IMG/VR virus record: IMGVR_UViG_3300005841_000061
Location: 1-35,784 of that record
DNA length: 35,784 nt
Origin: a virus
Strand: one strand, 5' to 3'
Of this stretch, positions 474 through 33,620 are shown piece after piece. Each line of letters opens with the position of its first letter. The first letter of the stretch is position 1. The notes beneath the pieces are model-generated. The model made no database searches. It saw nothing but the letters and a program-made list of their open reading frames with translations, and was not told the origin of the DNA. The translations under genes and the position numbers were made by a program.

Positions 474-2575
474 GTCAAACATCAGAGCAAAATGATAGTT
501 TCCCCATATCCCTAAGGAAGATTGTCGATAATACCTCGGAAATAGCAAACGGGGGATGGGGTGGAGGAGGAAACGGAATCTGGGGACAGATCATAGGAAC
601 GCTTTCGAACCAGACCGATCTTCAGAACGCCTTAAACGCCAAGGCGAATGTCGGAAGCTTGGGCATGTTCGGCACGCTTTCTACGGTTAATTCGGAGATG
701 GCAACTCCGTTTGTTCAACATCCGTGTCCAGCCGTAGGAACTAGCGTAACTCTTGCTACATTTACTGGCGCTGGGATAGTGGACATGGTATGGATTACGC
801 TAGGCACAAATAGCGATGGTACGCTAATGTGGGATGGAAGACTTCAAGTATTCACGGATGGGGCCGCACTGCCAGATATAGATACCGATCTAGGCACACT
901 TTTTTTAACGGCACTGGATGGTCATTTGGGATCAGCTAGGTGCGCCGCAACTCAGCACATTTCTTATGGAACTATGGGTGGATCTGGAACAGGCATGAGC
1001 GGGGGTCTTAAGTTCCCAATCCCATATAGCAATGGCATTGTCATAAAGCTTCTGGCTCCTACAGGGAGTACGAGCCACCCAGATTCAGACTATACCCTAT
1101 TCACTCAGATTTCAAACAAGCCCGGGGTAGTTAGCGGATATCGTCTCAGATCAAATGCAGTCTCCTGGATCAATAGAAAGACATACACGAAAGACGATAT
1201 AATCACATTTTTCAATCTAACCAATGCAGCCGGATGGTTGGTGTGGCAAAGCGTTGCGGTGCTCGGGCTAGCCAGTAGCGGAAATACGTACGATTATCTG
1301 GAGCGAATTTGGTTTTGGGGAATAGACGGAGAACCAACAACGCCAGATGGCAATGGAGTTGTTACGACTAAGTTTTCATCTTCCGGCGGTGAAGATCTTT
1401 TTCTTTACGGCTGGTACTTCGCTAACGCCCAGGGTGTGTATGGAACGCCTTGGACGCTCTGTACAGCAACCAACAATGCCAATAAGACCACGGTTGCGGG
1501 ATTCGATTTTTGGGCATCGTGCGGTGGACTTAAGTTTAGTTCGGCACTTAAGCCGGGTTGGTCTCTTAAGCCATCGGCTGTTATCAACAACGGCCACGAG
1601 ATGAGTTGGTGCTTCCTGTACTACATCGACACTTCGGTTCCATTTGCTCCGAGCGCTCCTTCTATTTCTGCAACGGCAGGAGATACGCAGGCTACTCTAG
1701 CAATAACCCCTCCAACTTCATATGGCTCAAGTGCTATCACCGGATACACAGGAACCTATTCTCCTGGAGGCGGAACATTCACAGTCGCAGCAGTAGACAC
1801 GAGCAAAGTAATCACTGGATTAACAAATGGGGTCACTTACACATTCTCGCTTAGAGCTGTAAATTCGGTCGGGACAAGCTCACCTGGAACTACGACATCA
1901 ACACCAACTTCTTTGCCTTTCCCGACGATAACGACAGGCACAATTTTGGCGCGGTACGTAGCAAGTGACTTGGCCCTTAGCGATGGAGCGAGCATAACGT
2001 CATGGGCTAAAACTTCAGGTACGTCATCTATAAGTTTGATTCAAAGCGGAACCGATCCAGTTCCAGTTTTTAAGACAAGTATAATGAACGGGAGGGCTGT
2101 TGCTCGATTCTCTGGTGCTGGCTTCTCAAGACTCGTGGCAAGTGCGAGCTTCAATACAGCTGCACCGACTATGATGATTTGTGTATGGAAGCCAGTAGCT
2201 CTAAGCGCAAATCAGGTTTTTGATACGTATCCTGGCGGTGCGCACGGACGAAGCGCAGGCGGAATAAATGGTAGCGGCCTATGGAATACGTACGCCGGAG
2301 CATCAGACGCAGTTTCGGCTGTTTCTCCTACTTCAGCGCCGCATATCGAAGTGATGGTTCAGAACGGCTCTTCTTCGTATGTCAGCATTGATGGCGTGAA
2401 GAGCAGTACGATAGACGCTGGATCCGGTGGAATCGACCTTCCGCTTTTTGGTGTTATCACCCAATTGGATGGTGACGTAGCTGAAATCATTGTTATTTCT
2501 GGAAACGTGTCAGATTCAGATCGTCGACTAATCGAAGCTTACGAAGGCACGGTTTACAATATTACAGTAACGTAA
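470..2575 (+). CDS. Tail fibre/receptor-binding protein with GH172 (DUF2961)-like, FnIII and lectin-like domains
   Basis: This 701-residue protein has a modular tail-fibre layout. Residues 36-58 match the phage fibre motif WGxIxGTLSNQTDLQNAL. Residues about 95-387 resemble DUF2961/GH172: a GAGIVDMVWIT segment, a DGAALPDIDTDLG segment, KFPIPYSNG, then LERIWFWGIDGE (Glu288) and GGEDLFLYGWYF (Glu308). GH172 enzymes use two glutamates about 20 residues apart, so Glu288 and Glu308 are the candidate catalytic pair. Residues about 394-480 form a fibronectin type III domain, and 488-701 look like a concanavalin-type lectin fold. Fibre and domain order are read from sequence; enzymatic activity on host surface glycan is inference. 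It starts in an ATGA overlap with the upstream gene and ends in a TAATG overlap with the next. Confidence 0.75.
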   Translation: MSQTSEQNDSFPISLRKIVDNTSEIANGGWGGGGNGIWGQIIGTLSNQTDLQNALNAKANVGSLGMFGTLSTVNSEMATPFVQHPCPAVGTSVTLATFTGAGIVDMVWITLGTNSDGTLMWDGRLQVFTDGAALPDIDTDLGTLFLTALDGHLGSARCAATQHISYGTMGGSGTGMSGGLKFPIPYSNGIVIKLLAPTGSTSHPDSDYTLFTQISNKPGVVSGYRLRSNAVSWINRKTYTKDDIITFFNLTNAAGWLVWQSVAVLGLASSGNTYDYLERIWFWGIDGEPTTPDGNGVVTTKFSSSGGEDLFLYGWYFANAQGVYGTPWTLCTATNNANKTTVAGFDFWASCGGLKFSSALKPGWSLKPSAVINNGHEMSWCFLYYIDTSVPFAPSAPSISATAGDTQATLAITPPTSYGSSAITGYTGTYSPGGGTFTVAAVDTSKVITGLTNGVTYTFSLRAVNSVGTSSPGTTTSTPTSLPFPTITTGTILARYVASDLALSDGASITSWAKTSGTSSISLIQSGTDPVPVFKTSIMNGRAVARFSGAGFSRLVASASFNTAAPTMMICVWKPVALSANQVFDTYPGGAHGRSAGGINGSGLWNTYAGASDAVSAVSPTSAPHIEVMVQNGSSSYVSIDGVKSSTIDAGSGGIDLPLFGVITQLDGDVAEIIVISGNVSDSDRRLIEAYEGTVYNITVT

Positions 2576-4812
2576 TGGCTGATATAAATATTCCGACCCA
2601 GATCACCGATTGGAATGTCGGGGATATTTTGGCTGGCAGCGCTCCAGGAAGAAGCGCTCGTATTCCTGGAAGCACCAGCGCGGAACTAAAGGTATTTGCT
2701 CAGAAAGGGGATGGTAAGAATTCTGCTAAGCCATTCTGGACTTCAGTTGGCTCAATCATTCCTGGGCTGGCCGCGATTGCAACGAGCGGCAGTGCTAATG
2801 ATCTCATTGCGGGCACGATCCCGCCGCTTAGGTTTCCAGCATTAACCGGAGACGTTACTACTCCTGGCGGTTCGCTCGCTACTACAATTAGCCAGAATGC
2901 GGTGAGTAACGGCAAGCTGGCGAAAATGCCGCCAATGACTCTGAAGGGCAACAATACTATCTTAGCTGCTGACCCCAAGGACCTGACTGTAGCCGAAGTT
3001 AACGCGATGGGAATTGGTGGAGGCGGCGGTGGATCAGGTACCGTGACGAGCGTTGGGCTAAGCATGCCTGCAATCTTTAGCGTGGCCGGTTCGCCAGTGA
3101 CCGCCGCAGGTACGTTCACCGTAACGCTAGCGACAGAAGCCGCTAATACGGTATGGGCGGGGCCAGGTACAGGCGCACCAGCAACGCCTACGTTTCGCGG
3201 CTTAGTCATAGCTGACATTCCGAGCCTTGCTACGCTTTACCAGCCAATAGACGCTACGCTTACAGCACTCTCCGCTTTAGCTGACGCGGTTGGATTCCTG
3301 CATAATGACGGAGCTGGTATGCTGGCTTGGTCTACTGCGGTTGTGCCTGGTTCGATAACAACGTCCGGGCTAACTCAGTCAACCGCTAGAATCCTTGGAA
3401 GAACTACCGCAGGAACAGGAGCTATTGAAGAGATCACAGTTGGCTCGGGTCTTACGTTAACGGCTGGCGCGTTGACGGCTACCGGAGGAGGAACAGGAGA
3501 CTTCCTAGGACCGGCTAGCGCTACGGATAACGCTGTAGTCCGTTTTGACGGTACAACCGGAAAGCTCGGGCAAAATAGCACGGTCACTATAGATGATAAT
3601 GGTAATACCGTAATTGGAACTTCAACGCCTGCTGGAATAGGATTAACTTTTCAGACCAGTGCGTATGGATTCATTCAGTTTAAACGTTCTGGAACTGCCA
3701 ACGCCTCTTGGGGTGTAGCGGGGGGCGCTAACGATTTTATCACAGGCTCAGTCGTTGACGACATGTGCTATAGAAATGATGCAAATAAAAACATTATATT
3801 CTCAACTGATAATGGCGCGAGCGCAGGTCTAAAAATAATTGCGGCAACAAACCTTATTCAGATACCTAAGTACACCACGGCAGGTCTACTATCTAACGAT
3901 GCATCTGGAAACGTAACAACTGCTACGGTAGGAAGCGGACTTAGCTTGAGTGCTGGCGTTCTAAGCGCTACCGGTGGAGGCGGAACACCAGCTGGTTCTA
4001 ATACTCAGATTCAGTTTAATAATTCAGGAGCGTTCGGAGCTTCAGCCGATCTTACTTGGGGCGGATCCACATCTGGCCTTACCGTTTCTGGGAATCCCCT
4101 TGCTGGGACTAATCCAACTTTCAAGATAACTGATTCTAACGCAAATGAACCAGTTTGGATGAGGGTTGAACAGAGTAATATTTCAGCTGCTTTTGAACTT
4201 GGGGTCGCAGGTGCTGCCGGTCAATTTCTAACCGATGCTCACGCTGGCGATGGAATATTTAAAGGATTTGGCGCGGGTGGCCCAGGAATGGCAATTGGCG
4301 GCGGACCAACATCGCCAGCCACTAGCTTATATATCAAGTACGTCTCTGGTTCTAAGGGGCGCGTAATTGTCGGCGGAGTGACGGATGACGGGGCAAACGA
4401 TCTTCAGGTTTTAGATAATGCATTTATCAAGAACTCACTGACGATAGGGAACGGCTTAGGAGCCGGGCCATTTCTAAAGATTAATAGCAGTACATATACA
4501 CTTCTTCAATACGCTAGGGGAGGGGCTTCTAAATTTTCAACCGGAACGGCTAACGCGGCTAATGATTTTATAACAGGAACGGTTCAGGACGACATGGCGT
4601 TTAAGTCAGATGCTTCTAAGAGTATCGTTTTTTCAACTGATAACGGGACAAGTATTCTGATGAAGCTAATTTCTGGTCATGGAGGGATTTTCTTAGGTGA
4701 TCAATCCGGAACGCCATCAACACCAACTGGAGGCGGGGTTTTGTTTGTAAGTTCTGGAGCACTTAAGTGGATTGGTAGTTCTGGAACAATTACAACTATT
4801 GCCGCAGCATGA
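2575..4812 (+). CDS. Large repetitive tail fibre protein (745 aa)
   Basis: A low-complexity Gly/Ser/Thr/Ala-rich protein of 745 residues. It contains well-known phage fibre modules: GTVTSVGLSMPAIFSVAGSP near residue 160, a NTVWAGPGTGAPATPTFRGL segment after it, and ATDNAVVRFDGTTGKLGQ near 315. Two 32-residue blocks (from residues 385 and 662) are near-duplicates, and two TVGSGL...LSATGGG-type linkers occur. Such proteins form trimeric beta-structured shafts. No chaperone, peptidase S74 or enzymatic domain is visible. It begins in a TAATG overlap with the upstream fibre gene and ends in ATGA overlap with the next, so the three are probably made together. Confidence 0.75.
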   Translation: MADINIPTQITDWNVGDILAGSAPGRSARIPGSTSAELKVFAQKGDGKNSAKPFWTSVGSIIPGLAAIATSGSANDLIAGTIPPLRFPALTGDVTTPGGSLATTISQNAVSNGKLAKMPPMTLKGNNTILAADPKDLTVAEVNAMGIGGGGGGSGTVTSVGLSMPAIFSVAGSPVTAAGTFTVTLATEAANTVWAGPGTGAPATPTFRGLVIADIPSLATLYQPIDATLTALSALADAVGFLHNDGAGMLAWSTAVVPGSITTSGLTQSTARILGRTTAGTGAIEEITVGSGLTLTAGALTATGGGTGDFLGPASATDNAVVRFDGTTGKLGQNSTVTIDDNGNTVIGTSTPAGIGLTFQTSAYGFIQFKRSGTANASWGVAGGANDFITGSVVDDMCYRNDANKNIIFSTDNGASAGLKIIAATNLIQIPKYTTAGLLSNDASGNVTTATVGSGLSLSAGVLSATGGGGTPAGSNTQIQFNNSGAFGASADLTWGGSTSGLTVSGNPLAGTNPTFKITDSNANEPVWMRVEQSNISAAFELGVAGAAGQFLTDAHAGDGIFKGFGAGGPGMAIGGGPTSPATSLYIKYVSGSKGRVIVGGVTDDGANDLQVLDNAFIKNSLTIGNGLGAGPFLKINSSTYTLLQYARGGASKFSTGTANAANDFITGTVQDDMAFKSDASKSIVFSTDNGTSILMKLISGHGGIFLGDQSGTPSTPTGGGVLFVSSGALKWIGSSGTITTIAAA
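3727..3822 (+). repeat. Fibre repeat block, copy 1
   Basis: This encodes a 32-residue block beginning ANDFITGSVVDDM and ending FSTDNGAS inside the large fibre. It is identical at 22 of 32 residues to the block at 4558-4653 by my hand count, with no gaps. It probably arose by duplication of a shaft module. Confidence 0.75.
4558..4653 (+). repeat. Fibre repeat block, copy 2
   Basis: This encodes the second 32-residue block, beginning ANDFITGTVQDDM and ending FSTDNGTS. It pairs with 3727-3822. The DNA has diverged more than the protein, mostly at third codon positions, which fits an old duplication kept for structure. Confidence 0.75.
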
Positions 4813-7576: not shown

Positions 7577-7999
7577 ATGGCCAAGAAAGAATCAGATATG
7601 ATCCACCTCGGCGTACCAAGCATGGGCACGATGTTCATTGGAACCGATAAGCCAGATGACTCCGAACCTGAGTATCCTTGCTTACGCACCCGAACCTACA
7701 CCGACCTAAAACTTCCAGAAGGTGATTTCTTTTTTCTAGGTATTGGTCACGTTAAGAGTAAATCTGAAGACGAGGAAGATTCAGGTGACGTTTGCTATAG
7801 CAATGGAATTGAGGTTATTGCGATTCAGCCGATCAGCTCTATAGCTGATGAGAAGATTATTGAGAAACCTGGCGCTCCAGGAAGTCTAGAAGACAACTTC
7901 GATGCTGCAATTAAGAAAATGCAGGATCTCAAAGAAAATGAATCTAAAGACGACTCATCTTACGACGACGATGAAGACGAAGAGGGAGATGATAGCTGA
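7577..7999 (+). CDS. Hypothetical protein with acidic C-terminal tail (140 aa)
   Basis: I start it at ATG 7577 ([12 protein letters not shown]), five bases after the upstream stop, rather than at an earlier ATG inside the previous gene. The body has a few beta-rich segments ([15 protein letters not shown]). The last 25 residues are almost all Asp, Glu and Ser ([14 protein letters not shown]). An acidic tail of this kind could bind basic or metal-rich partners or mimic nucleic acid. The final 40 bases are read antisense by the end of an HNH gene. Family not recognised. Confidence 0.65.
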
Positions 8000-8538
8000 T
8001 GCAATTTTTGCTTCCTACGCTTCATAGGACGCTTATTGTTGGCCTGCTCTTTGTAGGTCGCCCACTTGCAATTCTCTTTGCAGTATGGGCCGTCATTGTC
8101 GATGCGTTCAATTGTGTATCTGGGTCCATCGGTTGGTTTCATTCCCATGTCCGCGATGAAGTTCTCAAACGATTCAAGCCAGCGCTCGCATACCGTTATT
8201 CCCCGACCGCCCCAGTATTCGAATTGGGTGTAATTGGGATTTGTGCATCGCTGAATCATATTTGTAAAACAGTTGTACTCCGATGTGTTACGCATATTGT
8301 GCGTGGTGTTTATTCTAGTCATTTCATCGGAATTAATACATCCACAGCTTTTGGTATGGCCGTTACGCAACTGGGTTCCACGAGCAATGGTCTTGTTTCC
8401 ACAGTCACAAACACATTCCCAGCATGCAATTTTCCCAGAATCTACTTTTGCAAATATTGTCACTGTAAGCCTACCGAATCTTTGGCCGGAAATATCCTTG
8501 AAGTTATGCCCTCTTTTTACGATCAATTCATCAGCCAT
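7960..8538 (-). CDS. HNH homing endonuclease, antisense insertion (192 aa)
   Basis: Residues 40-67 hold a Cys cluster (ECVCDCGNK then SCGC), a probable zinc-binding unit. Residues about 98-170 carry the phage HNH signature: [11 protein letters not shown], then [19 protein letters not shown] and EQANNKR. Such enzymes nick or cut DNA at intron-free or intergenic target sites and spread with their own gene. AGGAG lies 8 bases before the ATG. It faces the flanking late genes. The family normally ends near residue 170; here the frame runs on through basic residues into [10 protein letters not shown], read antisense from the acidic tail of the neighbour. That suggests insertion at the gene end. Confidence 0.85.
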
Positions 8539-8567
8539 AAACTAAACTCCTATTTGGTTTTGGTTAG

Positions 8568-8600
8568 AGCTCATTTCCGACTGAAGATCGGCGATGAGCT
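8568..8600. other. Two-part inverted repeat between HNH and adaptor genes
   Basis: AGCTCAT (8568-8574) pairs with ATGAGCT (8594-8600), and inside it CCGA (8577-8580) pairs with TCGG (8588-8591), leaving symmetric 2-base internal loops and a 7-base apical loop. It lies between the divergently read HNH gene and the adaptor-like gene at 8641. It has no T-tract typical of a terminator. It may be a leader structure or a remnant of the homing element boundary. Confidence 0.4.
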
Positions 8601-8640
8601 TGATTTTATTCTCGTACCGGTAGTCTAAAGATCAATCAAA

Positions 8641-16459: not shown

Positions 16460-17560
16460 ATGGCCACAACAGCCGGGTACGGCGTCCAAGTGATGCCAAA
16501 TATTCAATTCGCCAGCGGGTCGGAATTGGCTGGGCGCGGACCAGGCGAAGCGATTGCTGGGTTTAACTCTGGCATTGGAGCGATTAACGCCATCCAAAAC
16601 ACGCGGCAGAAAGCTATTTTGGCTCCAATTGAGCAAGAAGCTGCGAGAGCACGTTTGGCGCAGATCCAGGCCGAAACTGAATTGGCTCAGGCCCAAGCAC
16701 CATATCGTGCCGCATTGGCTAGGATTGAAACGGCCAAAGCGAGCCAACCGTTCAGGACAAAGCAGGGAGAATCTATTGTTCAGGTTCCTAGGCTGGACGC
16801 GAACGGACAACCAACGGGACAGTATGATCAAGTGATTCAGGAAAGTGGCGTTCAGTACGATCCGGTTACTGGTACAAACAGTCCCTACACAGCAAACATG
16901 AAGCCGCTCGTTACGGCTGAAACGGCTGCGCTAAATAATTCCCTTATAGGTTCTCGACAATCTACATCCGAATATCAGCAAGACCAAGCCGCTGCGAGAG
17001 CCGAGGCTAATAGAATTGCAGCGCTTAACGCTCAGACTAATCAGGATCGGGCTAAGGCTCAGGCTGACTTGTATGCTCAGAGAATCAACCATTACAAGGC
17101 CCTTGAAGCCCAGGGGAAGGTTCAGATCTTCCAGACAGTAGACGCCAATGGCAATTTGGTTCTAAATCCCGTAGACGTTAAAACGCGTCAGGCGCTGCCT
17201 CCTATCAGTCTGAACGCTAAACCGAATCGTTCGGTTGATCCAGTTACTGCAATGATGTCAGGGGATGGTAAGGTGGGTGCCGTTAAGCCAAAGAGTGAGA
17301 GTATGACAACAGCAGCCACGAATTGGGTGAAGAATAAGATCAATTCATTCACTTCGCCGTCTCCCGCTGCGGATCAACCAGTGACTACGCTTCCCGTAAT
17401 TCCGGCTGGTCCCGTTGGCCAAGCATCACCAAACCCTGGACCTCCAGACATTCCAGATGACAGTGAGATCGATAATCTCCTCGGGTTTAATCCGACTCCA
17501 GTAGCTCAGCCTAATGCAGCTCCCGTGTCGCCCTACAAAATTCGTGTGGTTAAACCCTAA
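16460..17560 (+). CDS. Internal virion (ejection) protein, helical (366 aa)
   Basis: A 366-residue, Ala/Gln/Glu-rich protein. Residues about 45-95 form a strong helix (ILAPIEQEAARARLAQIQ and after), another lies about 170-215, and the C-terminus is Pro-rich with a short tail. It has no membrane segment. Position between two other ejection-like proteins supports a role in DNA delivery. The stop overlaps the next start as TAATG, so the giant protein is coupled to it. I cannot name the family; inference rests on order and composition. Confidence 0.5.
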   Translation: MATTAGYGVQVMPNIQFASGSELAGRGPGEAIAGFNSGIGAINAIQNTRQKAILAPIEQEAARARLAQIQAETELAQAQAPYRAALARIETAKASQPFRTKQGESIVQVPRLDANGQPTGQYDQVIQESGVQYDPVTGTNSPYTANMKPLVTAETAALNNSLIGSRQSTSEYQQDQAAARAEANRIAALNAQTNQDRAKAQADLYAQRINHYKALEAQGKVQIFQTVDANGNLVLNPVDVKTRQALPPISLNAKPNRSVDPVTAMMSGDGKVGAVKPKSESMTTAATNWVKNKINSFTSPSPAADQPVTTLPVIPAGPVGQASPNPGPPDIPDDSEIDNLLGFNPTPVAQPNAAPVSPYKIRVVKP

Positions 17561-20500
17561 TGCCTACTTATGAGGTAACAGGTCCCTCCGGTACGGTCAT
17601 TGAAATGGAGGGAGCGAATCCGCCTAGCCAATCGGATATTGATGCCGCGTTTGCGAGTATCCAACAAACGGCTTTGCCTGCCGCTCCGGCTTCATCTGGT
17701 GGTGCTGATTTGGCGCGGATGGCAATTGCTGCCTATAACGCCCCAGCTCCTAATATCGGAGCGAATCTAAACCTTCGTGATGCGCGTGCGGCAGGAGGGC
17801 AGACCTTAAGCTTATCTCAGGCTAGCCCAATTGCTCGTGAACGTGCGTATGATGTCCTTGGCGGGATTACTGGTCAAGGCGGATCTGAAGCCGCGCAGTT
17901 CACAAAGCAGTTCAGGGAAGCGCCAGTAGGCCAAGCGTTTCAAGACCGATATCTAGGCGCTATCGTTAAGACTGGCGACAATACTTTTAGGCGTGTTGGC
18001 CAAGCTCCGCAGCGTGAACAAACGGCAGGGGATATTTCCAGCCAACTTTTAAATCAGGTATCCAACGCGGATATTGGTGGCGCTCTTAGTACGCTTCAAC
18101 CCGGATTTAACCGAGCTGGTAATCTTGCTGTCCGTAGCGGTGGATTGGTTGCGTCAACGCTTGCTCCAGAGCTTAGACTCCCAGGGCTTATTCTTGGATC
18201 TACGGGGGAACTAGCGGGCCAAGCAATCGACGCTGAAAGCGCAGGTCAAGATCCTCTCAATTGGCGTAACTATAGTTTACCAGGTATAGTTGGCGCTGGG
18301 CTCGTGAGTACAGTTGGATCTGGCGCTACGGCTCCTACGCTTAGGCAGGCGGCAGCACAAGGCCTCCTTGAGGGTGGTGCGCTAGAGGCTCCGTATCAAC
18401 TATCGAGTTTAACGGCTGGCCCAACGCAGGCTGAAATTGATCCTAATACGGGACTGCCTATTGGCGCGGCTAAATACGAAGGAAACTCTACGGATCTCCT
18501 GCCTACGCTAGCAATGGGCCTAGGCGCTCGTGGAGGTCACGCTATTGCGAACGCTATTTCTGATCTAAGGAATCCTCGGTTGCCGCAAATTGAGTCTGCT
18601 CCGGCTAGCTATACGGATCAAGGAATAGTCAATGCTCAGACGGCAAGACAAGCTGAAGGAAACGCGGCGCTCGCTGACGCATTTCAAGGCGAACAACGAG
18701 CGCTACAGGGCATAGATACAGGCTATCAGAATGCCGTAGAGCTACAGGCTCCAGTCCAAGCACAGAACGTTTTGGATGCCGCCGAAGCACAAGGGGCAGT
18801 TAACGCACAGAGACAGGGTGCGATTCTGGATAACCCGGCTACGCCGCAAAGCGCTCAAGCACTTCGAGAGCAATTAGCACTTGAGCAGCAAGCGGCTGAT
18901 CGTGCGGTGCAGCAGCAGAATATTTTGAGACAGGCGTCTGGCCTAGATTTACAAGAAGCAATGCGGGCTAATCAGATTCAGCCTAGCACGCTTACACCGA
19001 TTGAAACCTCCCCTCAAGAACTGGCAGCTAGGCAGATTAGAGAACTGGACGCTCAACGAGCTACCGCGCTTCCGTTAAACGCTGAGCTTTCATCTCAGGC
19101 CAATAGGATGAACGAGCAATACGGGCGGGCGCTTCCTATTGCTCTTCCGACAATTGCTGGCGTAGGTGTTGGTGGTGCTATTGGATCAACGCAAGGCGAT
19201 ACACCACAAGAGCGATTTCAAAATACAGTTCTTGGTGCTGTTGGTGGTGGTCTGCTTGGCGCGGGCGGAACTGCTGCTGCACGGCTAGCTCAACCAGAGC
19301 TTAACGCTGGCGAACAAGTCTTGGCCAAGGCAGCTAAGCCACCGAGTCTTGCCAACATCGTAGCTGAAACCGCTTCTCACGTTGAAGGAAGTCCTGCTAG
19401 TACGCAGGCCGCAGCTAACGCGCTTACTCAGACTCCAAAGCTGCCTACGATCGCAGAGGCTACTGCGCAACAATCGGCTATTTCTTCGCTCAAGGATAAG
19501 CTCGTCTCCGGTCTAAAGAAAGCCGGTAAAGCTCTTACGCAAGGTGACACTGTTCCTAAGTTTCAAGGCGATTACTCAGCAACTCCTGACGCAGTGAAGG
19601 GCGGACCTGCTCCGGTTGGTTCTTACTCTGGCGTTCAGGAAGGTGCTAACGGCGAAAAGATTGATCTCTTCCACTTGAATCAGCCCGTCTATGATGACGC
19701 GGGGAAGATGGTTCATCCAGCAGGTTCAGACGTAAGCCGGGAATCGCTAGAAAAATTGGGCTATACCGTTCCAGAACCGAGTACATTGCCGCCAACTAAA
19801 GGCGCGTATCCGTCTGAGATGACTGGAGAGCAGTATCAGGCGCTCCGCGCACAAGAAGTGCAGGCCATGAAAGCGCAGGAGGCTGTTGCGCCCATGAACA
19901 ATGAGTCAATGAAAACGCACTCAGCCCTTGTAGGCGCTCTTGAAGTACTAGACTTCTCGCCATCAGAGGTTGGCGAAATCATGCGGACAAAGACGCCAGA
20001 ACAGATTCGTGGAATTATCAATGATGCCGTAGAGAGCGGTAAGAGCACTTCTTTAAAACCGTTACCTCAAGATACGGAGTTTCTATATGAACAGAAATAT
20101 GACACCAAGTCAGGACCGAAGTCCGAGCGGTATTATCAAGTTGACCGAACTCCCGACAATCCAAGAGGAAGAACTGTTGATGAAGCAACCCTGCGCTCGG
20201 AAGGGTACGATACTTCTGGACTCCCAGGACCCGAAGAGAATCCAGCAAATTCTGGATCTTCTCAATTCTCGGGTGCTATTGGAGCTGGCGGAACTCAAGG
20301 CGCAGTCACAGGAAAAGCGTTAGGCATACTTGCTGGCAGCGCTACCGGAGGTACCCTTGGTTTCCTGGGCTCTAACGAAAAAGACGATAAGTTAGTCCAC
20401 ACTGTAGCTGGTGCAATCATTGGTGGAATCGGAGCGGCGGCTCTGATGAAAGGAGCGGATGCTGTAACCAGAGCCAAGGTTGGGCAAGAGCTAGATGTTA

Positions 20501-23103
20501 TTCGCCGCAACATAATCAATGAGAATATCCCGCGCTTAAGGAACGCATCGGAAGAATCCGCTAATGCTGTGTTTCGTTACGCCAATGCGCCACAAGCCGC
20601 TGAAGATGTAGCGAAAGACATTCAGGCTAGAGTGCTTGGAAGTCAGTACAAAAGCCCGGAGTTCTCAAAGAAGCTCGGTTCTGTTTGGGTAGAAGAACAG
20701 CAGAGAGGGCTAAAAAATAGTTTGGAGGAGGCCGCAAATAACGCATCCACTCCAGAGGAAGCCACGCAGCTACGCAAACAGGCATCTAAGGTGGTAAGCA
20801 CAATTGGACGCGAAAGCGTATTCAAGAATGAGGCCGAATTTCAGGCCGCGCTAAATGATCCACAGATCAAAGAGGCCAACGAGATTTTTAAGCAGACTGT
20901 TCAGCCCGCAGCCGAGGCCCGTCATTTGCTCACAGGAGGATTTGATTCCAGAGAAGAGTATGAGGCCGCGATTCAAGAAGCGCTAAAAAACGGAGACCCA
21001 CTTCCAACCGTAAAGCTTGCTGCCCCAGGACCAAATACTGGAGTTTTCATAAACCAGCAGCCAATATTTGAAGAGGCCAAAGAAGTTACTGGAGGATCAT
21101 CGCCAAAGGGCAACCTCCGAAATCCGCTTCAGCGCAGGTCTGCATTTTCTAAGGTTCGTAAGGGCACCGCAGAAGAGTACAACATTGACGCCAATAGCCT
21201 GATTGAGCGCATGGTCAAAGGTAACTATGAGGATGCTGCTAAGCGGAACATGTATACACAGCTTGAAAAAGACGGGCTGGGCGTAGCGCTTCCTGCCGGA
21301 GAAAAACCAACAGACCTAGATACCGGTCGTTACGGAGGTCCTCCAATTCCAATCGAGCAACGCGGAAGCGGCAGCGCCAATACTTTTTTTTGGCCGGATC
21401 AATCTATTGAAGGAGAGTTGAGAAAAGCTCTGAACACAGATAGTCCGTTACGTAAAAAAGGATTTCTTGCTAGTGTCAGAGGAGCAATGAACCTGATTCA
21501 GATGCGCGGCCTAACCGATCCGGTTGTGCACGGGGCCAACATTATTGCTGGTATCGCTTCTGCTCCTGGTGGAGAAAACTTCATTACTCAAGTGTTTAGG
21601 GGCATGCCGATAGCATCCTCGTTCGATGCTCTTGGGAAAGTGGGGATGAAGGTTGTTGACCTTATCAAAGACACTCCAGAAATTAGGTCGCAAATCGCTA
21701 AACTTTCCGAAATCGGAAGTATCAGACCGGTCTACGAAGGAGATACGAATCGTATCAGTCGATTCCTCCACACGGTAGACAAAGCCGGTAGGTTGGCCTT
21801 AGATGATCTCTATCAGACCTTGGTTGATCGAGGACTAGTTCAAGAGTCAGAAGCTGGTAGGCGCGATTTTGCCAATAGAATTGGTCAGTACAATAGCCGT
21901 TTGCTTGGTCAATATGACGGTATCCTAAAAGAGTCTGGATTATCGCCGTTCCTGGTTGCTGGTAAAAACTTCAATTCTATTGGCCTTAAACAAGTCGGAG
22001 CACTTGGCGGGCTATCCACTGGAGGAGTGAAGGCTGCATCCAAAGCAGCAAGCCTGCAGCTTAGGGCAGCACAGACTATTGGGGCCTACAGTACACTTGT
22101 CGCCATACCAGCGGTGATTAACTATCTGGCCTGGGGAGACCCAGGTGGACCAGATGGAACCCCGCTTGGTAAGATTGCGCTAAATGAAAGTGACGATGGA
22201 AAGCGTTACTACTTCGACCCGGCACAGCTCACACTGCTTCGGCGTGGCTTGCGCAGCACGGGCCTGCAAGCGGTCATAACCGGCGCACAAACTGGCGACA
22301 ATCTAAACAACGTAGGTGGTCAAGCATGGCGAGACGTAAGAAACGCGCTCATTCACCCCTACGCTGGTCCAGTCCCAACCGCAGCAGTCACCGCTTTAAC
22401 GGGATATAACCCAACGTTCCATCGCGTAGCGGAGAACGTAACTCCTATTGGTCAAAGCCCAGACACGCTAAGGCAGCTTGGAGCTAATGCGAGTGCCGCG
22501 TTTAGAAACCTAAATCCAGTTCAAGGGGCCTTTGCAGAATCCGCTACGCCTAAAGCCGGAGAGGAGGCGTTTGGTCCAGGAGAATCAATTCTACCTGGAG
22601 TCGGAAACATGCTGATGGATCTTGCTGGCGCTGGTGGTCTACGTAGGGCGACTCCGCTGAGCGAAGACACAGGCGCGCTCCACGAGGCTCAGGACGAACG
22701 CTTCGAAGCCAACAGAAACCGCAAGAAGCTGATCGAGTCAATTATCGCAGGAAGCACAGACGCGAACGGACAATTGGATCTGTCTCAAGTTAGGGCCCAC
22801 ATTCAAACGCCAGAGATCCAGCAGGCCATCCGAGAGAACCCACTGCAAGCCCAGCTTCTCAAGAACGAGATCCGCACCGCAGTTAAACAGAAGCTCCAAG
22901 GCCAACAGAAGTCGGACGTTGAAAGTAAGTTCAATGTCGCCGAAGGAGAACGTGCTCAGTTTTACCTTAACCGAATCTCGAATCTTTCGCCGGAAGAGGC
23001 GCAACAATACCTGCGAGATCAGAAGTCAAAAGGATATTTGACTAGGAAGGTCCTGCAACAAATGAATTATTTGAGGTCAAGACAGCCCGCTGGTGTTCCG
23101 TGA
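17560..23103 (+). CDS. Giant internal virion (ejection) protein (1847 aa)
   Basis: At 1847 residues this is the largest gene. Its start (MPTYEVTGPSGTVIEMEG, then SQSDIDAAFASI) matches a short module at the N-terminus of many phage DNA-injection proteins. Two glycine-zipper clusters occur, at residues about 527-570 (IAGVGVGGAIG, GAVGGGLLGAGG) and 905-965 (GILAGSATGGTLG, AGAIIGGIGAAAL), which could insert in membranes. Long Gln/Ala/Glu helices fill the rest. The C-terminal 200 residues are charged and helical. No lytic transglycosylase, muramidase or RNA-polymerase motif was visible, unlike some T7- or N4-type counterparts. Confidence 0.65.
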   Translation: MPTYEVTGPSGTVIEMEGANPPSQSDIDAAFASIQQTALPAAPASSGGADLARMAIAAYNAPAPNIGANLNLRDARAAGGQTLSLSQASPIARERAYDVLGGITGQGGSEAAQFTKQFREAPVGQAFQDRYLGAIVKTGDNTFRRVGQAPQREQTAGDISSQLLNQVSNADIGGALSTLQPGFNRAGNLAVRSGGLVASTLAPELRLPGLILGSTGELAGQAIDAESAGQDPLNWRNYSLPGIVGAGLVSTVGSGATAPTLRQAAAQGLLEGGALEAPYQLSSLTAGPTQAEIDPNTGLPIGAAKYEGNSTDLLPTLAMGLGARGGHAIANAISDLRNPRLPQIESAPASYTDQGIVNAQTARQAEGNAALADAFQGEQRALQGIDTGYQNAVELQAPVQAQNVLDAAEAQGAVNAQRQGAILDNPATPQSAQALREQLALEQQAADRAVQQQNILRQASGLDLQEAMRANQIQPSTLTPIETSPQELAARQIRELDAQRATALPLNAELSSQANRMNEQYGRALPIALPTIAGVGVGGAIGSTQGDTPQERFQNTVLGAVGGGLLGAGGTAAARLAQPELNAGEQVLAKAAKPPSLANIVAETASHVEGSPASTQAAANALTQTPKLPTIAEATAQQSAISSLKDKLVSGLKKAGKALTQGDTVPKFQGDYSATPDAVKGGPAPVGSYSGVQEGANGEKIDLFHLNQPVYDDAGKMVHPAGSDVSRESLEKLGYTVPEPSTLPPTKGAYPSEMTGEQYQALRAQEVQAMKAQEAVAPMNNESMKTHSALVGALEVLDFSPSEVGEIMRTKTPEQIRGIINDAVESGKSTSLKPLPQDTEFLYEQKYDTKSGPKSERYYQVDRTPDNPRGRTVDEATLRSEGYDTSGLPGPEENPANSGSSQFSGAIGAGGTQGAVTGKALGILAGSATGGTLGFLGSNEKDDKLVHTVAGAIIGGIGAAALMKGADAVTRAKVGQELDVIRRNIINENIPRLRNASEESANAVFRYANAPQAAEDVAKDIQARVLGSQYKSPEFSKKLGSVWVEEQQRGLKNSLEEAANNASTPEEATQLRKQASKVVSTIGRESVFKNEAEFQAALNDPQIKEANEIFKQTVQPAAEARHLLTGGFDSREEYEAAIQEALKNGDPLPTVKLAAPGPNTGVFINQQPIFEEAKEVTGGSSPKGNLRNPLQRRSAFSKVRKGTAEEYNIDANSLIERMVKGNYEDAAKRNMYTQLEKDGLGVALPAGEKPTDLDTGRYGGPPIPIEQRGSGSANTFFWPDQSIEGELRKALNTDSPLRKKGFLASVRGAMNLIQMRGLTDPVVHGANIIAGIASAPGGENFITQVFRGMPIASSFDALGKVGMKVVDLIKDTPEIRSQIAKLSEIGSIRPVYEGDTNRISRFLHTVDKAGRLALDDLYQTLVDRGLVQESEAGRRDFANRIGQYNSRLLGQYDGILKESGLSPFLVAGKNFNSIGLKQVGALGGLSTGGVKAASKAASLQLRAAQTIGAYSTLVAIPAVINYLAWGDPGGPDGTPLGKIALNESDDGKRYYFDPAQLTLLRRGLRSTGLQAVITGAQTGDNLNNVGGQAWRDVRNALIHPYAGPVPTAAVTALTGYNPTFHRVAENVTPIGQSPDTLRQLGANASAAFRNLNPVQGAFAESATPKAGEEAFGPGESILPGVGNMLMDLAGAGGLRRATPLSEDTGALHEAQDERFEANRNRKKLIESIIAGSTDANGQLDLSQVRAHIQTPEIQQAIRENPLQAQLLKNEIRTAVKQKLQGQQKSDVESKFNVAEGERAQFYLNRISNLSPEEAQQYLRDQKSKGYLTRKVLQQMNYLRSRQPAGVP

Positions 23104-30241: not shown

Positions 30242-30268
30242 CACTTGATCAATTCATATTATCAAGTG
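30242..30268 (-). terminator. Inverted repeat at the end of the SGNH gene, weak terminator candidate
   Basis: CACTTGAT (30242-30249) pairs perfectly with ATCAAGTG (30261-30268) around an 11-base loop. It spans the stop codon of the minus-strand SGNH gene. The stem is only 8 bp and the bases after it on the minus strand are A/T-rich but not a T-run, so it may be a weak terminator or an mRNA 3' structure. Confidence 0.35.
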
Positions 30269-33200
30269 ATACCCGAAACGGAGAACCGCCGACACGGAAC
30301 GAGCCCGTATAACTCCATCCACGTTGTCCGGTAGGATCTGGAGGAGAATAGAAACCACCATAGATAGTTACGCCGCGAGCTGAGTCGTAGATTGCGCCGC
30401 GACTCACGCCGCCAAACTGGATACCGTGAATGATGTTCTGGCTGTAGTCTCCGATGTGGAGTGCTAGGTTTCTGGTAGCAACGCAGGCGCAGACTGGGTC
30501 CTGGATTCTCTTGTCGGTGATCTTGCGGTACATGCCGCCGATTACGCCGCGATTTCCAGCAAACCTAGTGACATAGGAATAGACTGCGCGGTCTGCGCGG
30601 GCTACGGCGAAGAAACTCTGACCGAACGCTTGAGGGTTCTGCCCCTCGTCCATAACGCCAGCGGCTTGTACTTGGCCGTAGTAAGAGTCAAAGCGGGACC
30701 AGAACATTTGCGTGATGTTGCAGCCAACCGAGCCAACCTGGAATGAACCATAGATCTGTACGGGAGCGCCGGAGAAGTAGCCGAATTTGTACCTGTCCAT
30801 GAAGGGCGCGATGGAACAGACGTGAACTAGGCCGGACTCTGTGCCGATTAGGATCTTTTCAAAGTCGGCAGACCAATCGCCAAAGTGAGAGTTGGTTAAT
30901 CCACCTGAAGCTAATAGGCACGTAGGCTTAGTTACCTTAGCCGAGTAAACAAGAGTAGGCTTTAGGCCAGCGTTGCCGCCCTGCCAGTTTGAGGGGAACG
31001 TGCCAGCGTTCATCGCGTTCTGCGTGGCCTGCCAGGTTGTCTGGTCTGGCTCTAGGTACTTATTCCAGATGTCCAGGATAAAGGCTGTGCAATCGTAAAC
31101 AAGAAACTCTCCTTCGGTTTTAGAAGCTACGGCAATGCATCCAGAGCGAGCAAATGAAGAGTACGTGCCAGAATTATCCAGGGAACTATTGCGGTAGCCT
31201 GCGCGTTGGCCCGCGTCTGCTAGGTTGATTAGGCCGGGATCTGGATTGACCGGCTTAAGCGTAGCGTCTGTGGCGAAGCAGATGGACGTTGGAAAGTTAA
31301 CGCGCACACCATCCATGTTGAAGAGATCGAACTCATCAATGCGCTGGCACTTGGTCCAAGAACCTTCATTACTGAAGCCGATGTAGGGAGGACTGTGCCC
31401 CGGTAGGCCCCAGCCTTGCATAGCGAATACGACAACCTTGGCTACGTGGCGATTGGTATCCCAGACGATAGAGGCTTTGAACTCGTTCATCGTTGAGATA
31501 GCGAATGGTCCGGGGACTTCGCCGGGAAGAAAACCTCCTACGGGAACAGGAAACTTATCTCCATCGCGGGAAGTATCGAGTGGCTGAGTTGTGCCCGCGC
31601 CGTAAGCATCGTCAATCCAGGCTTCCGAAGAGTTGATGAAGTTCGCTCGGTCCGACCAAATTGGGTTACTTGGGAGCCGACTAATAGCGGTAGCTAGTGG
31701 CTCTCCTGCTGCACCGTAGGGGTCCTGGCGCTTGTAGAGATGGGCATAGAGTGTCCATAGCGTAGAATCGCGCAGGAAGCCTCCAGAATTGCGTTTGGGT
31801 TGAAGAGCAAAGCAAAGGTTATACTGAGCTGAGCCTTGGAACTTATCCAGGCCGCAGTGATTGATGCGGTCCTCGGAGTGGAATGTAACTGTGCCGCCGT
31901 CTGAGTTGTAGTCTCCGCCCTGGAGGCTCATCCAGTAATCGTCGTTAAGCCGGATCGTCCTTTGCCGATGATCCAGCATGAGGAGGTTACGGATATACGG
32001 ATCTGGATTCCAGTTGGCGGGGTCGTTGGGATCTACGCAATAGTTTGGTAGGCCAAAGAAGAAATTGTTAACGCCAGGGTCTACGGCTGGGTGAGTTGGC
32101 CCGTCTGTGCGCGGGATGACTTGCGCAGCGCAGTTTACCGGGTGCATGTCATGCCCTGGGTCCTGGAGAGATCCGTCGATAGGAGGCACAGGAACACCTT
32201 CGCCAAGCCTATCGTAGATCTGTCCGTCGTACTTAAGCTCTTTAGTGAATAGCTCGTCTCGGTCCTCTGTGCCGTTGGGATTCTTCTCCTGCCAGGTTGG
32301 GCCCCAGTGGCGAGACCAAGCCCTAGGATCTTCGGTTTTCCAATAGGCTGCGTAGCCTGCCGCGTTTACGGTGCCGTCCTGATTGCGGGCTACAGGCATG
32401 CTAGCTACAGGCTTTAGCGCGTACTTCATGCCCATAGCGTCGCCATTCGCTAGTGCCGCGATGCCTTCGTACCAAGGATGTACTCCGTCAAACTGTTGAT
32501 CTGGATGCGTCGTGAAGTGTACGAAGAGCGAGCGATTGCCCTGCCGGATAGTCGTCTGGTTGCAGACCTGATCTAGCATTGGCAGATAGGATTCCAAGAG
32601 TTGCAGGCTAGCCCTAGTCCATAGCCCGTTATAGGATCCTTCCTGGATATTGATCGGGTATTGCAGGACTACAGTCTGTTCACCTTCAGTGACCAACGCC
32701 TGGCAGATCGCCTGCATCTTGGTTTTAAAGACTTCCTTGGTTAGGGCTACACCTACCTTGGAATCGTTGTGCCCGAAACGGACCAGCGTAACCTTGGCCC
32801 CCGATGCCTTAATCGCGGCACACTTAGCTGAGAGGAGTCCAGGAGTATCGACAATGTAGGCCGAGGATGCGCCGTCTACCGAAGCGTTGATCTTGAGGGT
32901 ACAGGTTTCGCCTGTGGCGGTGGTTGCTGCAGCTGCTACGAGGTCGGCGGGGTTACCCTGGCCACTCTTATCAAAGTACATTGAATCGCCTAGTAACGCG
33001 AAAGGAATAGGCCCTGCTGTGTAAGGCAGAGGTACGTCTAGGATAGGACCTGCCGGGATAACTGGAGGCGGATCGTAAGGAGGTGGACCCGGATCTATCG
33101 GAGGAGGAGGAGGTGGCGGAGGAGTCACCGGAGGAGGAGTAACAGGACCGCCCGCGCCTCCAGCGCCGCCTCCGCCTGTACCTGGAACTACACCTGCAAC

Positions 33201-33620
33201 AATTGAGAGAGTTAACGTAGCTGAGACTACCCAAGAGTTGGGAGACTTCCGCGTGTCACATGCAGCTCTTAGGGTATAGGTTCCTTCCTCGTTAAAGGTG
33301 TATGTACCCTGCTTAATCGAGATAGATCTATTTCCGCCTAGAATACCTTCACTCCAACTCCAAGCTTGCCTGTTCTGAGAATCCGTTAACGTGATGTAGT
33401 GGCTTTTAAGATCTCCGTCCGCGTCTGTGGCGACTGATTCAAACTTTAAGGTTGAGCCTTTGGAGAACTGCGTTTCCTGCTGAATCGGAAGGAGGTACAC
33501 CTGCACATTCGGAACACTTGGTACATGCGGCGGCTTTTTTTTGTCAGTAGGAGGAGGCATAAGCTGAGTGTTTGTTAACGGATAGTAGGACGTTTGCGTT
33601 TGCTGTCCAGGTTCCGCCAA
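30249..33620 (-). CDS. SGNH hydrolase tail-spike/depolymerase candidate (1123 aa)
   Basis: A 1123-residue protein. Residues about 38-142 form an Ig/PKD-like beta domain, then a Gly run and a long Pro-rich hinge (160-190). Residues about 205-392 carry a complete SGNH/GDSL set: LLGDSMYF (Ser213), Gly250 in SVDGASS, FGHND (Asn285), and FDGVHPWY (Asp378, His381). Such domains remove acetyl or acyl groups from polysaccharides. Residues 400-1123 are beta-rich with no named family. It is likely a spike that edits host surface sugars. The only start in range is TTG at 33620, inside the upstream gene. It is the sole large gene on the minus strand. Confidence 0.7.
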   Translation of the reverse strand: MAEPGQQTQTSYYPLTNTQLMPPPTDKKKPPHVPSVPNVQVYLLPIQQETQFSKGSTLKFESVATDADGDLKSHYITLTDSQNRQAWSWSEGILGGNRSISIKQGTYTFNEEGTYTLRAACDTRKSPNSWVVSATLTLSIVAGVVPGTGGGGAGGAGGPVTPPPVTPPPPPPPPIDPGPPPYDPPPVIPAGPILDVPLPYTAGPIPFALLGDSMYFDKSGQGNPADLVAAAATTATGETCTLKINASVDGASSAYIVDTPGLLSAKCAAIKASGAKVTLVRFGHNDSKVGVALTKEVFKTKMQAICQALVTEGEQTVVLQYPINIQEGSYNGLWTRASLQLLESYLPMLDQVCNQTTIRQGNRSLFVHFTTHPDQQFDGVHPWYEGIAALANGDAMGMKYALKPVASMPVARNQDGTVNAAGYAAYWKTEDPRAWSRHWGPTWQEKNPNGTEDRDELFTKELKYDGQIYDRLGEGVPVPPIDGSLQDPGHDMHPVNCAAQVIPRTDGPTHPAVDPGVNNFFFGLPNYCVDPNDPANWNPDPYIRNLLMLDHRQRTIRLNDDYWMSLQGGDYNSDGGTVTFHSEDRINHCGLDKFQGSAQYNLCFALQPKRNSGGFLRDSTLWTLYAHLYKRQDPYGAAGEPLATAISRLPSNPIWSDRANFINSSEAWIDDAYGAGTTQPLDTSRDGDKFPVPVGGFLPGEVPGPFAISTMNEFKASIVWDTNRHVAKVVVFAMQGWGLPGHSPPYIGFSNEGSWTKCQRIDEFDLFNMDGVRVNFPTSICFATDATLKPVNPDPGLINLADAGQRAGYRNSSLDNSGTYSSFARSGCIAVASKTEGEFLVYDCTAFILDIWNKYLEPDQTTWQATQNAMNAGTFPSNWQGGNAGLKPTLVYSAKVTKPTCLLASGGLTNSHFGDWSADFEKILIGTESGLVHVCSIAPFMDRYKFGYFSGAPVQIYGSFQVGSVGCNITQMFWSRFDSYYGQVQAAGVMDEGQNPQAFGQSFFAVARADRAVYSYVTRFAGNRGVIGGMYRKITDKRIQDPVCACVATRNLALHIGDYSQNIIHGIQFGGVSRGAIYDSARGVTIYGGFYSPPDPTGQRGWSYTGSFRVGGSPFRVSLDNMN

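Follow-up and report, generated by a model that had tools for sequence, protein, structure and literature searches.

A putative phage tail fibre carries a DUF2961/GH172-type domain in which both catalytic positions are apparently kept

The window analysed here comprises the whole of the virus record IMGVR_UViG_3300005841_000061, a stretch of 35,784 nucleotides. Close to its start lies an open reading frame for a protein of 701 aa, which was assigned as a tail fibre on the basis of the homology of its N-terminus to phage attachment regions (phrog_25379, and phrog_8469 in the relative L093) and of its location among virion genes; the coordinates of its parts are collected in Table 1. Besides the fibre, further virion-type and phage proteins were found in the record by Pfam and PHROG comparisons, and the 745-aa product of the adjacent frame appears fibre-like in its composition as well. 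The domains flanking the enzyme-like part had been described in the first-pass annotation as FnIII and lectin-like. The fibronectin type III domain was recovered by its Pfam profile, whereas the lectin-like assignment found no backing, as the C-terminal 218 residues gave neither a Pfam nor a PDB sequence match.

Table 1. Coordinates of the tail-fibre gene, its domains and key residues, and the following gene.
Feature	Position	Strand	Basis
Tail-fibre open reading frame, 701 aa	470..2575	+	Open frame; Pfam DUF2961 and fn3; N-terminal PHROG tail-protein match
N-terminal virion-anchor region, residues 31-84	560..721	+	phrog_25379 'tail protein', E 1e-8
DUF2961/GH172-type domain, residues ~88-386	731..1627	+	Alignment with cellular members; Pfam core 124-366 = 839-1567
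Glu278, acid/base equivalent (aFFase1 E270, DgGH172c E233)	1301..1303	+	Alignments; 10-residue spacing
Glu288, non-catalytic DGE-turn position	1331..1333	+	Alignment column E/D/Q in relatives
Phage-specific insertion VVTTKFSS, ~8-9 residues, between DGE turn and nucleophile	1358..1381	+	20-sequence alignment
Glu308-Asp309, equivalent of nucleophile and neighbouring Asp (aFFase1 E291-D292, DgGH172c E254-D255)	1391..1396	+	Alignments
Trp315, equivalent of aFFase1 W298, -1 subsite	1412..1414	+	+7 spacing from nucleophile; Trp in all 20 aligned sequences
Fibronectin type III domain, residues 393-476	1646..1897	+	PF00041, E 3.7e-8
C-terminal module, residues 484-701, beta-rich, probable binding domain	1919..2572	+	57-62% identical in relatives
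Next gene, 745-aa fibre-like protein, same cassette	2575..4812	+	Adjacent frame; weak DUF5907 repeat match below cut-off

Some further genes of the record were observed. Within the block of fibre and virion genes a 192-aa open reading frame on the opposite strand (7960-8538, -) has an HNH-type look (CVCDCG...CGC, NCKWATY) and overlaps a plus-strand frame at 7999-8628; it gave no Pfam match and probably encodes a homing-type endonuclease. A similar endonuclease-like frame of 176 aa is located just upstream of the fibre gene of the relative L002 (5159-5689, -), and at that position only a short gap is present in the record studied here, where the upstream frame ends at 189 and the fibre starts at 470. 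For two very large open reading frames, 17560-23103 (+, 1847 aa) and 30249-33620 (-, 1123 aa), no Pfam or PHROG match was obtained.

A DUF2961-like domain had been proposed at 752-1630, which is close to the span obtained here by alignment, and the proposed search against the Pfam profile DUF2961 (PF11175) matched residues 124-366 with 28.3 bits and an E-value of 1.6e-6. As this score is just 1.3 bits above the Pfam cut-off of 27, a chance match of an unrelated beta-rich domain was considered. Two near relatives scored similarly (27.8 and 28.3 bits), but L093, with 59% identity over the domain, reached 34.9 bits (E 1.5e-8), and 57.1 bits were obtained for gp60 of HRTV-29. In the reciprocal direction, a profile built from bacteriophage sequences only (A2) recovered a cellular open reading frame with the motif GTGTEDYF at an E-value of 5e-6, and a profile of the same type with HRTV-29 added (A5) recovered other cellular frames, down to an E-value of 3e-11. 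Together with the conservation of the motif positions in resampled alignments described below, these results render the already disfavoured chance match extremely improbable. The presence of a DUF2961/GH172 homologue within a phage tail fibre, as had been claimed, is well supported by the Pfam match, the reciprocal profile hits, the N-terminal matches to tail-protein families and the fold comparison.

For the fold comparison, residues 60-395 were modelled with AF2 (pTM 0.76, mean pLDDT 66) and the model was compared with known structures. Z-scores between 21.9 and 23.0 were obtained against GH172 structures (8ah3 23.0; 7v1v and 8ic8 22.3) and of ~11-12 against capsid proteins, the GH172 match being a consistency check and not independent evidence, because 34 of the 38 rows of the input alignment were bacterial GH172 proteins. 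Residues ~293-351, E308 included, mostly have a pLDDT below 50, and a model from the viral rows alone reached a pLDDT of 43. In a structure search of BFVD a single GH172-like protein ranked first; at 367 aa it has the length of HRTV-29 gp60, and the hits below it were mostly capsid proteins.

The catalytic residues of GH172 are known from two enzymes: in aFFase1, E270 is the acid/base and E291 the nucleophile, and the -1 subsite includes D292 and W298 (PMC8605356), and in DgGH172c the corresponding residues are E233 and E254, with D255 adjoining the latter (PMC10115798). Activity is lost or falls sharply when the catalytic glutamates or the Asp next to the nucleophile are mutated (PMC8605356, PMC10115798). 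Alignments of PDB sequences placed E254 of DgGH172c at the Glu of GTGTED and, combined with the published numbering, the acid/base of solved GH172 members 10 residues ahead of the DGE-turn Glu, so that the fibre equivalent would be Glu278 and not Glu288. Of the cellular motifs found, FLEGDEMIFIDGE...GTGTEDYFSSGWYY came closest, and its LE-to-DGE spacing equals that of the phage sequence YLERIWFWGIDGE...SGGEDLFLYGWYF.

The first-pass annotation had named Glu288 and Glu308 as the catalytic pair. The numbering was correct, with E288 in DGE and E308 in GGED, 20 residues apart, and the assignment held for Glu308, which is followed by Asp309 in an arrangement of the type G-x-G-x-E-D, albeit with SSGGED instead of GTG[TS]ED. 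Since the cellular sequences had been chosen by the motif G[TS]G[TS]ED, the invariance of the motif among them is by construction, and what is informative is the placement of the phage residue: E308 occupied the nucleophile column in 50 of 50 resampled alignments and likewise in the 38- and 20-sequence alignments. The acid/base column fell on E278 in 38 of the 50, on a gap in 10 and on Y276 in two, and in two individual alignments (A3 and A7) E278 was placed beside a gap. Glu288 was rejected as acid/base, since it was never aligned with the catalytic Glu (0/50) and its column in the 20-sequence alignment varies between E, D and Q. The columns of E278, E308, D309 and W315 each hold one residue in all 20 sequences of that alignment, and Glu278 is also invariant in L093. 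By alignment, Glu308 is the equivalent of the GH172 nucleophile, and the case for Glu278 as the acid/base equivalent is strong but not absolute.

The surroundings of these residues have changed. The insertion VVTTKFSS is present in the fibre, L002 and L093 and missing from HRTV-29 and the aligned cellular members. In an ungapped alignment the side-chain Ca ligand N272 of aFFase1 corresponds to Ile280 and the position of Trp267 to Asp275, which is replaced by Ser in L093. For the N-terminal Asn/Asp Ca ligands (N31' and D33' of aFFase1) no counterpart could be recognised in the fibre sequence. The Ca ligands are probably dispensable, because aFFase1 was not inhibited by EDTA (PMC8605356).

Full-length relatives of the fibre with 82% identity were found in three IMG/VR contigs. 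In the DUF2961 domain the identity to L002 is 99%, and the codon differences, 57 synonymous against 3 nonsynonymous, show strong purifying selection; the C-terminal module is 57-62% identical in the relatives. At the DNA level the identity to L002 is ~87-98% in the DUF2961 part, ~70% for residues 1-40 and mostly 40-73% for residues 400-680, the pattern of a conserved, functional core whose ends vary or have been exchanged. Positions 1646-2572, which encode the fn3 domain and the C-terminal module, share ~60% DNA identity with L002 versus ~94% in the preceding domain. This suggests module exchange at the border between the DUF2961 and fn3 domains. Moreover, the same DUF2961-fn3-C-terminal cassette occurs in L093 and L094 behind another N-terminus, one with matches to phage tail-fibre families (in L093 phrog_8469 'tail fiber protein', E 1.8e-9, instead of the phrog_25379 anchor of the fibre), so the cassette has moved between anchors. 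All viral sequences group together in the tree, on branches so long that no origin was drawn from it.

The scans of IMG/VR recovered only the lineage of the fibre itself, L093/L094 and HRTV-29, and no viral relative was recovered with a canonical GH172 query, although remoter viral members could be missed by scans seeded with exact short peptides or tblastn. No close copy was present in whole-genome samples of two phyla (those of L055 and L085). Among 50,697 phage records HRTV-29 was the only genuine case confirmed, with three of four faecal candidates examined and H7 left out; these four were unannotated 'Bacteriophage sp.' records with DUF2961-like matches. The three examined, L125, L126 and L127, were rejected as bacterial fragments owing to their TonB-dependent receptor genes. 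They (MT835583.1, MT836379.1 and MT835628.1) hold Bacteroidota-type genes, L125 additionally SusD and glycosidase genes, and are apparently bacterial contamination of the phage collection. The DUF2961 family was found in no virus in the survey of Krupovic et al., 2022, and the literature searched contained no report of a GH172 fibre. A DUF2961/GH172 domain with both catalytic positions apparently kept is, as far as these comparisons of sequences reach, rare in viruses; the fibre is not quite the first viral DUF2961 protein, as HRTV-29 gp60 is so annotated in GenBank, as a stand-alone protein.

GH172 enzymes hydrolyse alpha-D-arabinofuranosides and fructofuranosides with retention, and their active site is formed where adjacent subunits of a trimer meet. 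Since phage fibres are as a rule trimeric, the assembly required by the enzyme would be provided by the fibre itself. The protein would be a tail fibre or spike subunit composed of an N-terminal anchor, a GH172-homologous double-jelly-roll domain, an fn3 domain as spacer and, at the C-terminus, a binding module. From host-surface glycans it would cleave terminal alpha-furanosyl sugars resembling arabinofuranose or fructofuranose, by a retaining mechanism in a pocket at the subunit interface. Glu308 would act as the nucleophile and Glu278 as the acid/base, and the choice of receptor would fall to the C-terminal module. We judge this reading, an active or adapted exo-acting, retaining furanosidase that trims host-surface glycans from within a trimeric fibre, to be the likeliest, with a probability of roughly 0.55. 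The label of a new depolymerase class, which had been attached to the domain, goes further than the evidence, because the characterised GH172 enzymes covered here liberate monosaccharides or have a disaccharide as substrate.

The main rival is that of a catalytically silent, GH172-derived double jelly roll, which the fibre would use as a trimeric scaffold or for binding glycans, much as the capsid proteins use the same fold without being enzymes (PMC8812541). It would account for the altered subsite and Ca-ligand residues around both glutamates, for SSGGED in place of GTG[TS]ED and for the insertion beside the nucleophile. However, a silent domain need not have kept Glu278, Glu308, Asp309 and Trp315 in two phage lineages that are 59% identical and in HRTV-29 at ~26% identity; the strong purifying selection also speaks for function but is equally compatible with structural constraint. 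On balance the silent domain is regarded as a serious but clearly less probable explanation. The insertion and the altered subsite residues could likewise have shifted the specificity, leaving an enzyme that is active but catalyses another reaction or acts on another substrate, for instance an endo-acting depolymerase, of which phage fibres often carry examples. Set against this are the exo or disaccharide action of the characterised GH172 enzymes and the lack of a sign of an open cleft in the sequence, and such a change is considered improbable.

With the exo-acting furanosidase as the preferred reading, a wider proposal can be made, though only tentatively and at less than even odds: a tailed-phage fibre may have recruited a GH172 enzyme, with the interface active site provided by its own trimer, as an adsorption enzyme of a class undescribed in virions, and the double-jelly-roll family would then have entered virions a second time, independently. 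A DUF2961 domain with the catalytic motif in a tail of Duplodnaviria would have been taken into virions in a separate event, one whose trace can still be read from the sequence. Should the domain be active, phages would offer an enzyme for furanosidic sugars, e.g. arabinofuranose, that is useful against glycans for which few tools exist.

Compared with the solved GH172 members (aFFase1 7V1V, DgGH172c 8AH3 and ExoMA1 8IC8), the fibre domain shares sequence homology, at only ~14% identity, the predicted double-jelly-roll fold (Z 22-23), the nucleophile Glu-Asp, the Trp at +7 and the acid/base Glu 10 residues ahead of the DGE turn. It differs from them in being joined to an anchor, an fn3 domain and a C-terminal module in a phage tail protein, as well as in SSGGED, the 8-9 residue insertion and the changed Ca ligands and some -1 subsite residues. 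HRTV-29 gp60 (UBF23338.1, annotated DUF2961) is likewise viral, ~26% identical, has both catalytic positions kept and is encoded within a tail module, between the tail completion and tail tube genes; in contrast, it is a stand-alone protein of 367 aa from a halovirus (archaeal virus), without fn3, C-terminal module or insertion and with the canonical motif GTGSEDFF. The double-jelly-roll capsid proteins, thought to have common ancestry with DUF2961 (PMC8812541), share the general fold (Z 11-12) but belong to the capsid and not the tail. No sequence-level similarity of them to the fibre domain was seen, whereas the recruitment in the fibre is by a tailed phage and visible at the sequence level. 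In its combination of an anchor, an enzyme-like domain and a C-terminal module in a single fibre protein, the protein resembles the enzymatic phage tail spikes and depolymerases, which usually are built on beta-helix or other GH/PL folds.
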